From NCBI GenBank assembly GCA_012522575.1, contig JAAYKE010000132.1, positions 1-50,026 of the forward strand: a stretch of DNA of 50,026 bases, read 5' to 3'. The notes under the pieces are model-generated. The model did not search any database. It saw only the letters and a program-made list of their open reading frames with translations, and had not been told where the DNA came from. Shown in pieces: positions 41,073 to 46,282 of the stretch. Made by a program: the position numbers and the translations under genes. The first letter of the stretch is position 1; each line of letters opens with the position of its first letter. Source of the DNA: Armatimonadota bacterium (GTDB lineage Bacteria > Armatimonadota > UBA5829).

Positions 41073-44000
41073 GTGTTGGCTCGCAGACCTACAACAATCA
41101 TTGCATTTATGTTGCTGGCCTCCATTTTCGCCGGCGGACCGGCTGCAGGCGGGATGGCTGACAAGGCTCGTCTCGTCGAGGAACTTGCCGCGTCCCCTGC
41201 TCGCGCATCCGCGCTGGCAAAGACAAACCGCAGCGATTTGTCGGAAATCGCGCTGGACATCATCGTATATCGCTGGGCATCGGTTGCGGCCAATCTGCCG
41301 ACGGATGTCAATAACGCGAACGCGATAATAGCCGCTGTTTCGGATTCGCTGGCCGATTCGCTGATCAAATGGTCGCTGGACGCATTTTCGACCAAGAATA
41401 ACTCAGGGGCGTCCTCTATTGTCTCAAATAGCGATCGCATCTCGAAACTGACCGAACTGCGGCGTCAGTTTGGAATGGCCCTCGATTATCGCAATTCATC
41501 TCCAATTCAGTCTGTAAACGCATTGACCAGCGTGCTCGCATCAAGTCGGGAACTCAATCTGGACCTGACGGAGGCTCTTGTTTGCACTATTTTAGGGCGG
41601 CAATATCACTATGACATGTCGCGATATCGCCTGGCCGAGGAGTGTTACAGCCGGGCCGGGATGATATTTTTCGCCTATGATTGCTTCGAATCGGCGGCGA
41701 TTGTATATGACGACTACGGCAGCCTCGGCTCTGAGATGGGCAGGTCGCTGGTGGCGACGCAGTATTATAGCCTGGCCGCTCAACAATGGTCCCTGTTGGC
41801 AAAGCAGAACCCGACTGTCAGCAGATATAGATTGATGGCAGGCAGGGAGTTTATTCGCGCAAGCAAGGCGCAAAACGCCGCCGGGGATACAGATAAGGCC
41901 CTTGAACTTGTCAACGCAGGATTGGATAAGCTCCGCGAGGCCGCTGCGATGACCAAATCATACGACGAACTAATTAGAAATCTGATCACCGTATCGAACC
42001 TGTATCGCAGCCAAAACAACCTCTCCAAGTCCATCGAACTGCTCAAAGCTGCCGCGCGAGCCGGAGAACAAAGCGAGGATCCGCTGCTGGTAGCGCAGGT
42101 TTATGAAAGCCTCAGCGACGCGTATGAAGAGACAAACCTGAACCCGAAAGCTCGCGAAGAGGCTGCAAAAAGAGAGAAGATTCTGAACAATGCAGCGATT
42201 GCCGCCGAAAACGCCGTAAACAAGCTGATATCAGATGAGTCTCTAACAAAAGAAGAGCAGCTCAAGTTGCAAACTATAGCCGAGCGCGGCGCGGGAGCGC
42301 TGCAGCAATTGGATAAAAGCGCGGAGTCGGCTGCGTTGCTGACGCGCATAATCGACATCTATAAAAGCAAATCTTTTGTGGATGGGCAGATAAGGTGTAT
42401 GAGGGCGCTTGCCGAGACCCTGGATTCACAACAGAAGTCACCGGAAGCCCTTGCGCAGCGCATGGAGGCAGTTACGCTCGCCCTAAAGACAAATAAAAAG
42501 GTGCTGGCAGGGGAGATTGTGCGCGAAATGGTGCAATCGTTTATCGATGTCGGCGATCTGGACAACGCATTGGACACACTGGCTGAGTTCTGGAGCATTA
42601 TGGAACAGTCCGGCAACGTGCGCGGGGCTGCTGACGTGCTCGAAGGCAGAGGGACCCTGCTGGCCAGTCATGGACGTTTTGAAGCTGCCGTTCAGGACTA
42701 TGAAAAGGCATTGTCTAGATATTCGACTCAAGTCGGGGATCCGTGGGCGGCGGCAGGCGTATCGCTAAAGCTGGCCTCGGCTCTTGGTTCGCTCGATAAG
42801 CCTGCGGAAGCTGCCGAGGTGTTGGAAAAAGACCTCCAAGATATTGAAACGCGCTACTCAGATGAAAATGTGGACCCTAATATAAGCCCGGAGCGCGCTC
42901 GGTTGATGATGGGATTGTATCAGGAGTTGGTGATCGCATACGTTCGTGACAACAGATGCGAGGCGGCCACGAATATATTGACCAAGGCTCGTCATTATCC
43001 GTGGATAAGCGAACTGGTCTCTCGGCTGCGGGCTTCGACCGACCCATTGGTAGCTGACTATGCAAAATCGGTCGATGTCGTCGGAAGCGAGCCTGATCCG
43101 GGGTCATCCACGCCATCCATAAGCGGCCCTACCCTGCTCGCCAATAACTGGGCGGATTTTTCTGCCAGATCTGCGATGCTCAGGGAGCGCTACCCTGCAC
43201 AGTATAATGCGCTGCCCGTCAATCCTCTTATAGAGTTTTATAAATCCCGCAACAGCCTGCCCAAAAAGATATTGATGATCGAATATCTGCCCACAAACAA
43301 CTCAACGTTCGCGTTCGTATGCGGAAACGGCAAGGCGTCGGTGTGGGAGTTGGGAATATCGAGCAAGAGGATGACATCCCTTGCAGGTCTGCTGCGAAAC
43401 AACATCAGGGCCTTTGAACTGAGCCTGGGAGCCGGAGTTCCGCTGCCGCCGATAAGCGACTGGAGAGAACCGTCATTTCTTGAAATCCGCGATCTGCTGA
43501 TTGAGTTTTACAACGCTCTGATTGCGCCGATTGCACAGGAGTTCGATCAAAATCACACCCTGATGTTTGCGCTGCCTAACGAACTTAAAGGCGTACCGAT
43601 ACATGCGCTTATTTCCGGTGACGACAAAGGCGCGCCAAGATTTATGGTGCAGGATTATGAGATAGGTTATCTGGCGGAGGATATGCTCAGAGACCTGCTC
43701 GGCAAGGATAACAGGCCGATTGAACAGAACTCGGACAGGCTGGCCATATTCGCCGACCCCGCGGGAGATTTGCCGGGTGCGCGCAAGGAAGCGACTATGC
43801 TGGGCAAGCTATACTTCAACAGCAGCGTCTATGTGGGCAACCGCGCCACCGTAGGCAACTTCATCAAAGAGTGCGACAAGGCCAGCATACTGCATATTGC
43901 GCTGCATTATGACGTGCATCCCAATCCGTCCAAGTTCGTCCTTCAACTCGCTCCTGAGGGCGGCCTGGCAAAAAACATCACAGTTCAAGAGTTATCATCA

Positions 44001-44315
44001 GTGACCAATCCGCATCTGCAACTAGTGGTGCTGTCGGCATGTGACTCAGCGGCGTCTGCCGATCCGCTGGAATCCGGGCCATCCCGCGCTGCCGAGGTGT
44101 TTTCCCTTATGGGCGCAAAATCCGTTCTTGGCGGGCTATGGAAGGTGGCCGATGAGCCGGCGTCGGATTTGATGGGCGATTTTTATAGAACCATTGTCCG
44201 GGGAAATACGCGAACCGGTTCGTTGCGTGCCGCGCAACTCAAAATGATCGAGGACAAAACTTATGCGCACCCGTTCTATTGGGCGTGTTTTGCGATGTAT
44301 GGAAGCCCGTGGTAG
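41073..44315 (+). CDS. Exported TPR-CHAT domain protein
   Basis: 1080 residues. The N-terminus is a signal peptide (TIIAFMLLASIFAGGPAAGG). Residues about 60-660 are helical repeats of TPR type (for example ALVCTILGRQYHYDMSRYRLAEECYSRA-like pairs and LLASHGRFEAAVQDYEKAL). The C-terminal CHAT protease-like domain (about 750-1080) holds the caspase-type dyad: H945 in LHIALHYD and C990 in VVLSACDSA, followed by FSLMGAKSVLGGLWKVADE and FYWACFAMYG. CHAT proteins are caspase-like peptidases or degenerate relatives. The start is GTG 41073 with GAGG 5 nt upstream. It is divergent from the DUF4091 gene; target and activator are unknown. Confidence 0.85.
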   Translation: MLARRPTTIIAFMLLASIFAGGPAAGGMADKARLVEELAASPARASALAKTNRSDLSEIALDIIVYRWASVAANLPTDVNNANAIIAAVSDSLADSLIKWSLDAFSTKNNSGASSIVSNSDRISKLTELRRQFGMALDYRNSSPIQSVNALTSVLASSRELNLDLTEALVCTILGRQYHYDMSRYRLAEECYSRAGMIFFAYDCFESAAIVYDDYGSLGSEMGRSLVATQYYSLAAQQWSLLAKQNPTVSRYRLMAGREFIRASKAQNAAGDTDKALELVNAGLDKLREAAAMTKSYDELIRNLITVSNLYRSQNNLSKSIELLKAAARAGEQSEDPLLVAQVYESLSDAYEETNLNPKAREEAAKREKILNNAAIAAENAVNKLISDESLTKEEQLKLQTIAERGAGALQQLDKSAESAALLTRIIDIYKSKSFVDGQIRCMRALAETLDSQQKSPEALAQRMEAVTLALKTNKKVLAGEIVREMVQSFIDVGDLDNALDTLAEFWSIMEQSGNVRGAADVLEGRGTLLASHGRFEAAVQDYEKALSRYSTQVGDPWAAAGVSLKLASALGSLDKPAEAAEVLEKDLQDIETRYSDENVDPNISPERARLMMGLYQELVIAYVRDNRCEAATNILTKARHYPWISELVSRLRASTDPLVADYAKSVDVVGSEPDPGSSTPSISGPTLLANNWADFSARSAMLRERYPAQYNALPVNPLIEFYKSRNSLPKKILMIEYLPTNNSTFAFVCGNGKASVWELGISSKRMTSLAGLLRNNIRAFELSLGAGVPLPPISDWREPSFLEIRDLLIEFYNALIAPIAQEFDQNHTLMFALPNELKGVPIHALISGDDKGAPRFMVQDYEIGYLAEDMLRDLLGKDNRPIEQNSDRLAIFADPAGDLPGARKEATMLGKLYFNSSVYVGNRATVGNFIKECDKASILHIALHYDVHPNPSKFVLQLAPEGGLAKNITVQELSSVTNPHLQLVVLSACDSAASADPLESGPSRAAEVFSLMGAKSVLGGLWKVADEPASDLMGDFYRTIVRGNTRTGSLRAAQLKMIEDKTYAHPFYWACFAMYGSPW

Positions 44316-44329
44316 AAATCTGCGCACAT

Positions 44330-44369
44330 AAAAAAAGGCGCAATGGCCACGATTGCGGCCACTACGCCT
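44330..44369 (-). terminator. Intrinsic terminator of the small RNA unit (also downstream of rnjA)
   Basis: Minus-strand hairpin with outer AGGCG/CGCCT (44369-44365 with 44340-44336), inner TGGCC/GGCCA, then seven T (44336-44330). It ends the candidate RNA that starts at 44533 and would also stop transcription running on from rnjA. Confidence 0.85.
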
Positions 44370-44533
44370 CAGGTTCAGGTGAGCTGACCCACCTGCAAAG
44401 GAGGTTAAGATGGGCGGCCGCCTGGAACAAATTGCGAAGTTGACCTAACATTTGGGAGAGATTGCAAGAGAACCACGCTGCTCCGATGTTTGGCGACCGC
44501 CTCGGTGCGAACTGCGTTTAGAAAGCACCGTAT
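44330..44533 (-). ncRNA. Candidate structured small RNA, about 204 nt, unidentified
   Basis: A consensus-like promoter at 44540-44568 and the terminator at 44330-44369 define a minus-strand unit with no ORF of note. Predicted helices from the 5' end: CGGUGC/GCACCG (44531-44504 region), GGCG/CGCC, CAAAU/AUUUG, a GC palindrome GGCGGCCGCC, and a two-part hairpin CCUC-CAGGUG/CACCUG-GAGG (about 44403-44368). It contains ACCUCCUUU, the sequence of the anti-Shine-Dalgarno tail of 16S rRNA. I compared it by eye with 6S RNA, SRP RNA, tmRNA and RNase P RNA and do not recognise any of them. Confidence 0.6.
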
Positions 44534-44539
44534 ACAATA

Positions 44540-44568
44540 ATTATATACCATTTATTATCAATATACAA
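44540..44568 (-). promoter_or_regulatory. Promoter of the candidate small RNA
   Basis: Minus-strand TTGTAT (44568-44563) and perfect TATAAT (44545-44540), 17-bp spacer, within a very AT-rich stretch (44531-44600). Predicted start at A44533. Confidence 0.7.
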
Positions 44569-44614
44569 CCATATTTATACCTAAACGTGTGTAGTTATTT
44601 CGGACAATCTTTCT

Positions 44615-46282
44615 TTATGCCTCCATAATAACAGGCACGACCATAGGTCTACAGTGAGTATGTTCGTAAACATATTTGCCCACAGCCTTTCTGCAGGCCG
44701 CCTTTATATCGTCAAATTCACCCAGCGCATCGTCGTCGGCATACTCCTGAAGCACCTGAGCAATGCGTTCTTTTGCGCCTTCTAAAATCTGTTCGGCGCG
44801 CTCGGCTTCGACAAACCCGCGTGAAAACATATCAGGTCCGGAGACAACCTGCTTTTCGGCCGGGTTAAGCCCTATCACGGCTATTATGAACCCGTCCTGA
44901 GCGAGATGCCGCCGATCACGCAGCACCAGATCCTCCACGTCCCCTACTCCCAGTCCATCTACCATAACCATGCCGGCGGCCACGCTATCGACCACCTCGG
45001 CTTTGTCATCGGATATCTCCAGCACGTCGCCAATATTCATATAAAAGATGCACTCTGCATCGTAGCCTTGAGACGTGACCAACTCCACAAACTTATGATA
45101 GTGCCTTTCTTCTCCGTGAACGGGGATCATATATTGTGGCTTCAGAAGATTGATCATCATCCTGATATCTTCCTGATTGCCGTGTCCGGACGCATGAACC
45201 ATTGTCTCCGGCTCGTAGAGCACGGTTGCTCCCTGTTTGAAGAGGCGGTTTATCGTGCGCATCACCAGGTCTTCGTTGCCGGGAATCGGGGTGGCGCTGA
45301 TAATAACTGTGTCCCCATCCTCGATTTTAATGCGCTTATGCTCGTCCATTGCCATCCTCGATAGCGCGGACAGCGGCTCTCCCTGGCTTCCTGTTGTTAT
45401 GATAACGGTTTCATCCCTGCCTGCCTTTGAGATTTCGTCGTTTGTAAGGCGGGTTCCGGGAGGGATTTCCAGATAGCCGAGTTCCTCTGCTATTCGACTG
45501 TTGTTTTCCATGCTGCGCCCGATTACCGCAACTGCGCGACCATATTTGGAGGCCACGTTAAATATCTGCTGAATGCGATGGATATTGGATGCAAATGCCG
45601 CAACTATGATCCTCCCGGTCGCGGTGGCAAAGATGCGCTCGAAGGTCTCTCCCACAACGCTTTCGCTTGGAGTGAAGCCGGGTTTTTCGACGTTGGTCGT
45701 ATCGCATAACAGCAACTCCACGCCCTGATCCCCTGCCCGCGCAAGGCGGCTCATATCGATAAGGTTTCCGTCGATGGGAGATTGATCGAATTTGAAATCT
45801 GCGGTATGCACCACCGTTCCGACCGGGGTCTCTATTATCAGACACGATGCATCCGGGATACTATGGGAGACACGCACCCACTCCACGGTAAAATCTCCAA
45901 GCTCCACAACTGAGCCGCATTGGACGGTATTTAGGCGCGCATAATCGATTAGCTTATGCTCGATGAGTTTGTTTTGGACAAAACCTAAAGTTAGCGGGGT
46001 TCCGTAAATCGGCACATCGATCCGCCTGAGCAAATAGGGCAGCGCGCCGATATGATCTTCGTGGCCGTGGGTGAGCACGACCGCCAGTACTTTGTCTGCG
46101 TTCTCTTCGAGGTAGGTGATGTCGGGGATAACAATATCTACTCCCAGCATCTCCTCTTCAGGAAACATCAAACCCGCGTCGACAACCAGAATCTGATCGT
46201 CGACGCGGAAGGCTGTCATATTCTTGCCGATTTCAAGCGCTCCGCCAAGGGGAATGACTTGCAGTTTTTTGTTTTCTTCCAT
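44615..46282 (-). CDS. rnj: Ribonuclease J
   Basis: 555 residues. The metallo-beta-lactamase core has VVDAGLMFPEEEMLGVD and VLTHGHEDHIGALPYLL; the beta-CASP insert begins near AAFASNIHRIQQIF and includes ITTGSQGEPLSALSRMA. The C-terminal metal ligand is in HASGHGNQEDIRMMI, and PVHGEERHYHKF is the usual conserved stretch. RNase J combines 5'-3' exonuclease and endonuclease activity in mRNA decay and rRNA maturation. The ATG at 46282 has no ribosome site; a 16-bp palindrome lies in the 34-nt gap to asd. Presence of RNase J fits a lineage outside the gamma-proteobacterial RNase E world. Confidence 0.95.
   Translation of the reverse strand: MEENKKLQVIPLGGALEIGKNMTAFRVDDQILVVDAGLMFPEEEMLGVDIVIPDITYLEENADKVLAVVLTHGHEDHIGALPYLLRRIDVPIYGTPLTLGFVQNKLIEHKLIDYARLNTVQCGSVVELGDFTVEWVRVSHSIPDASCLIIETPVGTVVHTADFKFDQSPIDGNLIDMSRLARAGDQGVELLLCDTTNVEKPGFTPSESVVGETFERIFATATGRIIVAAFASNIHRIQQIFNVASKYGRAVAVIGRSMENNSRIAEELGYLEIPPGTRLTNDEISKAGRDETVIITTGSQGEPLSALSRMAMDEHKRIKIEDGDTVIISATPIPGNEDLVMRTINRLFKQGATVLYEPETMVHASGHGNQEDIRMMINLLKPQYMIPVHGEERHYHKFVELVTSQGYDAECIFYMNIGDVLEISDDKAEVVDSVAAGMVMVDGLGVGDVEDLVLRDRRHLAQDGFIIAVIGLNPAEKQVVSGPDMFSRGFVEAERAEQILEGAKERIAQVLQEYADDDALGEFDDIKAACRKAVGKYVYEHTHCRPMVVPVIMEA

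Follow-up and report, generated by a model that had tools for sequence, protein, structure and literature searches.

Among described bacterial small RNAs, those of the RoxS/RsaE type from Bacillus and Staphylococcus are among the closest to the candidate presented here. In RoxS of Bacillus subtilis, C-rich regions are established pairing sites, and this RNA shields a target from RNase J1 (PMC5419742). Two other systems invite comparison on general features: 6S RNA (RF00013), which the candidate resembles in its size range and in its long imperfect hairpin, and the bacterial large SRP RNA (RF01854), which is likewise structured and stand-alone. Our search of the open-access literature for papers on small RNAs of Armatimonadota (Armatimonadetes) yielded nothing relevant, so that a candidate well bounded by a promoter, a structure and a homologue offers a usable entry point.

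Genomic setting and boundaries of the candidate gene

The candidate sRNA gene was located in a 50,026-nt stretch of DNA from an uncultured Armatimonadota bacterium (contig JAAYKE010000132.1), hereafter the window, on the minus strand and immediately 3′ of the RNase J gene (44615..46282, minus strand). An earlier note on this DNA, made from the sequence alone, had placed it just downstream of RNase J, and the Pfam domains PF22505 and PF17770 back the identity of this upstream neighbour. The convergent neighbour on the other side (41073..44315, plus strand) codes for a TPR-CHAT protein (PF12770, 1.1e-45), and both genes lie outside the RNA. The same window also contains a gene for a glycoside hydrolase 123-like protein (PF13320; 39343-41004, minus strand).

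The putative promoter (44540..44568, minus strand) consists of a -35 box TTGTAT at 44568-44563, a 17-nt spacer and a -10 box TATAAT at 44545-44540, with transcription expected to start at about 44533. Its -10 box is perfect and its -35 box agrees with the consensus in TTG only, which is why the promoter is not listed by a generic promoter scan. Two instances of the pattern TTGNAT-N17-TATNAT are present in the window, where shuffles give an expectation of 0.13. A corresponding promoter, TTGCAT-17-TATCAT, is found in a genus relative ahead of the homologue described below (L055:800-828), with the boxes and their 17-nt spacing kept in DNA that is otherwise just ~53-60% identical between the two species.

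At the opposite end, an intrinsic terminator (44330..44370, minus strand) is formed by a stem of 16 pairs, 9 of them G-C, at 44370-44335, followed by a T run; it is the strongest terminator-like site within 43000-46000 and is seen in this species only. Both of the boundaries claimed earlier, the TTGTAT-17-TATAAT promoter and the strong intrinsic terminator, are thus present on the minus strand. The relative is without a separate terminator: there, the basal stem of hairpin H2 directly precedes CCCTTCTTTT, and the CHAT gene ends soon after, an arrangement in which H2 plus the U-rich tail could act as a terminator in its own right.

Predicted fold

The predicted transcript of 204 nt folds at -87.5 kcal/mol, compared with -60.2 +/- 4.4 kcal/mol for its dinucleotide shuffles (z -6.2; 0 of 200 shuffles as good), in line with the several helices that had been proposed for this region. 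Part of this value stems from the terminator, and the core without hairpin H3 and the terminator still has a z of about -4.1.

Two hairpins make up the conserved core, which extends from about 44532 to 44405 and, at ~120-130 nt, is smaller than the full interval. Hairpin H1 (44503..44530, minus strand) has the stem CGGUGC/GCACCG and a large conserved loop, UUUCUAAACGCAGUUC. Hairpin H2 (44413..44501, minus strand) is built on the basal stem GGCGGUCGCC/GGCGGCCGCC (44501-44492 with 44422-44413) and continues into a middle stem, GGAGCA/UGUUCC, and upper stems GCG/CGC and GGUU/AACU. Its top (44446..44479, minus strand) is an invariant stretch of 34 nt, AGCGTGGTTCTCTTGCAATCTCTCCCAAATGTTA, with an exposed apical loop, AUCUCUCCCAAA, that carries CUCUCCC at 44460-44454; in the predicted folds of both species, this loop is very likely to be single-stranded. 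H1 and H2 belong to a common fold, and both are obtained when the RNAs of the two species are folded independently. Downstream of the core, hairpin H3 (44376..44395, minus strand), CAGGUGGG-UCAG-CUCACCUG, is present in this species only.

A coding ORF was ruled out: 1-nt indels between the two species break the reading frames and leave none of them conserved, which agrees with the lack of coding capacity noted earlier.

A syntenic homologue in the genus relative

A search of 61 related genomes revealed a single homologue (G001:C216:840-964) in the only other genome of the genus that was searched (contig JAAYKG010000064.1, Armatimonadetes bacterium isolate AS10tlH2TH_387). It sits between the same two genes, RNase J, ending at position 747, and the convergent TPR-CHAT gene, and it has kept the promoter boxes with their 17-nt spacing, hairpin H1 and the long hairpin H2. 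The longest exact run of the entire 3.4-kb alignment, 34 nt (44446-44479), coincides with the H2 top, and the second longest, 27 nt (44503-44529), with H1; the next runs, of 23, 21 and 20 nt, are all in coding sequence. The region holding the 34- and 27-nt runs is elsewhere about 70% identical, and the flanking RNase J and CHAT DNA is about 71-74% identical between the two species. Since the longest identical runs are H1 and the H2 top within a region of only ~70% identity, selection appears to act on loop sequence and not on folding alone, and the predicted exposed loops are under stricter conservation than the adjoining protein genes.

Pair changes were counted on a hand-made alignment of the two sequences, on which the covariation count rests. 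It contains two compensatory changes (A-U to G-C and C-G to U-A) and two one-sided ones (U-G to U-A and C-G to U-G), and two end pairs are broken in the relative; H2 accounts for both compensatory changes, one of the one-sided changes and the two lost end pairs. A MAFFT alignment is shifted by one column at the middle stem of H2, so that RNAalifold, run on it, failed to recover this covarying stem; the pair-change count therefore depends on the hand alignment. The two compensatory and two one-sided changes support the predicted fold, although covariation is thin. The earlier note had proposed to look for covarying homologues in related genomes, and the one that was found is syntenic, conserved and partly covarying. 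As to orientation, the minus strand is favoured because its U-G and G-U wobbles correspond to A-C mismatches in a plus-strand RNA; it is also favoured by the core z-scores, which are -4.1 on the minus versus -2.3 on the plus strand in this species and -3.3 versus -2.5 in the relative. At the level of sequence, comparison of the two loci shows a conserved promoter and a predicted two-hairpin core (H1 and H2), followed by a lineage-specific 3′ end.

Distribution

A covariance model built from the two sequences matched 2 of 291 genomes of the phylum, i.e. just the two genus members, and at E <= 10 it detected no further copy among the genomes of the family (2 of 15). The same two species were the only ones returned when 28 genomes of the class were scanned for the loop patterns, allowing at most 3 mismatches, and an exact 19-mer searched across all GTDB r220 contigs was found in the genus relative only. 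In the 12 further genomes of the family that include this end of the RNase J gene, the DNA behind it differs and contains no counterpart. Phages and plasmids gave no significant match (best E 8 and 0.6), and viral contigs gave no match. A repeat or mobile element was ruled out, as the sequence is single-copy in the genome. The putative gene probably represents a real and new small RNA family restricted to this genus. Its very narrow distribution, confined to one genus, is unusual in combination with near-absolute loop conservation, and the two together suggest an RNA that is young or fast-lost and strongly selected where present.

Possible functions

The candidate RNA probably has a regulatory role. 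We would give about even chances to its being a stand-alone sRNA gene of one Armatimonadota genus that works in trans by base pairing: it has a promoter and an intrinsic terminator of its own, it is without a conserved reading frame, and its invariant loop AUCUCUCCCAAA, predicted to be unpaired, makes a conserved putative seed for pairing that is itself predicted. The C-rich apical loop of H2, and perhaps the loop of H1 as well, would under such a scheme act as the seed and recognise G-rich sequences in the leaders or ribosome-binding sites of mRNAs. Hfq, for which this genome has a gene (G000:C112), is a possible helper, and pairing would then block translation or alter nuclease access.

The sequence GGGAGAG, placed at Shine-Dalgarno (SD) distance before an ATG, occurs 40 times per genome as opposed to 15 for a reversed-pattern control, a 2.7-fold excess present in both genomes, although this control does not preserve everything and the comparison is a weak point. 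From the excess over the control, the loop would be complementary to an SD variant in apparent use. Scanning of both genomes for GGGAGAG-N3-10-ATG or TTTGGGRGRGRTTG uncovered no convincing target in common: there were 24 and 21 candidate starts in the two genomes, two pairs of which were related by BLAST, and neither pair resembles a real start site. Longer complementary sites were few, with none common to the two species. Chance matches of the CUCUCCC loop to many SD sequences will in any case occur.

The main rival to base pairing is a protein-binding or scaffold RNA, in which a protein would recognise the invariant H1 and H2 tops, leading to sequestration of a regulator or to a ribonucleoprotein, with no mRNA pairing. 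We regard this as possible but rather unlikely; it nevertheless has to be taken seriously, since the invariance extends to stems: the identical 27- and 34-nt runs cover both stems and loops. An invariant 34 nt also exceeds the usual sRNA seed and would fit protein binding equally well, as would the failure to find a conserved mRNA target. Against it, inspection of the sequence reveals no repeated motif of the kind carried by CsrB-type decoys, no candidate partner protein was identified, and Rfam gave no match to known protein-binding RNA families. A further conjecture, which we consider unlikely, is that this genus-specific structured RNA, under tighter constraint than the adjacent RNase J gene, uses its invariant H1 and H2 tops as a module that binds protein or RNA by an undescribed mechanism.

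The conserved sequence could alternatively belong to the other strand or act in cis, either as the 3′ untranslated region of the convergent TPR-CHAT transcript or as an antisense partner to it. Some 15 nt separate the CHAT stop codon from the 3′ terminus of the candidate gene, and the distance is comparably short in the second species; no plus-strand terminator for the CHAT gene was found in the gap between the two. However, the conserved promoter boxes point the opposite way, the wobble pairs and, in both species, the core z-scores favour the minus strand, and an antisense pair, being perfectly complementary in any case, needs no loop conservation, all of which makes this explanation quite improbable.

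A divergent housekeeping RNA (6S, SRP, RNase P or tmRNA) or a tracrRNA would be compatible with the size and structure of the candidate, which are within the range of such RNAs, yet we consider this very improbable. In a scan against all Rfam families, which the earlier note had suggested for 6S and SRP, no family reached its gathering score and the minus strand was without a hit even at E <= 10; the candidate matches none of the covariance models of 6S, SRP, tmRNA and RNase P. Moreover, the genuine 6S and large SRP RNAs of this genome are on other contigs (G000:C137:6745-6949 and G000:C168:9305-9568, respectively), in keeping with the earlier statement that the RNA does not look like a standard housekeeping one. 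With regard to a tracrRNA, 22-mers from the H1 and H2 loops, the only parts so searched, are single in the genome (both strands, up to 3 mismatches), and therefore no repeat array pairs with these loops; no repeats were found near the locus. Across the 61 related genomes, 6S RNA scored above cut-off in 38, and several genomes of the phylum were without a 6S match, which may reflect divergence.

The earlier note had also drawn attention to a 9-mer identical to the anti-Shine-Dalgarno tail of 16S rRNA, ACCTCCTTT (RNA ACCUCCUUU; 44397..44405, minus strand). The 9-mer is indeed present, in a linker predicted to be unpaired; the meaning suggested for it is not supported, as the sole homologue does not contain it. 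It occurs twice in the window, with 0.33 occurrences expected and 5 of 100 shuffles reaching two. Together with H3 and the separate terminator, it is missing from the second species, in which the upstream two-hairpin core is kept, and the idea is for this reason unsupported as a function of the RNA. On the plus strand (44397-44448), the same site reads AAAGGAGGT-TAAG-ATG, i.e. an SD located 4 nt ahead of a 12-codon ORF (44410-44448) encoding MGGRLEQIAKLT; this ORF overlaps the 3′ portion of the RNA in antisense orientation and is absent from the second species, and the combination is probably accidental. A role of ACCUCCUUU in titrating the 16S rRNA tail, or in mimicking it, is thus hardly credible: the single-stranded position of the 9-mer in the predicted fold is outweighed by its absence from a homologue that retains the rest, by the identical copy elsewhere in the window and by the SD reading of the plus strand, and we reject it as the core function.

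Comparison with described small RNAs

The candidate fails the 6S model, and for both 6S and SRP RNA the authentic copies just cited lie elsewhere in the genome. Base pairing by a small RNA, modelled on the C-rich regions of RoxS, would be the most economical reading of the locus, with a probability that we put at about one half. Like RoxS/RsaE-type sRNAs, the candidate is stand-alone and has an exposed C-rich stretch that could find pairing partners in G-rich SD or leader regions. It differs from them in having a single C-rich loop in place of several C-rich regions, in targets that are hypothetical, and in belonging to another phylum, with no sequence or Rfam relation to them (minus strand, E up to 10). 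The connection with RNase J is also of a different kind: in the case of the candidate, the RNase J gene is only a neighbour, and in that of RoxS the RNA shields a target against RNase J1.
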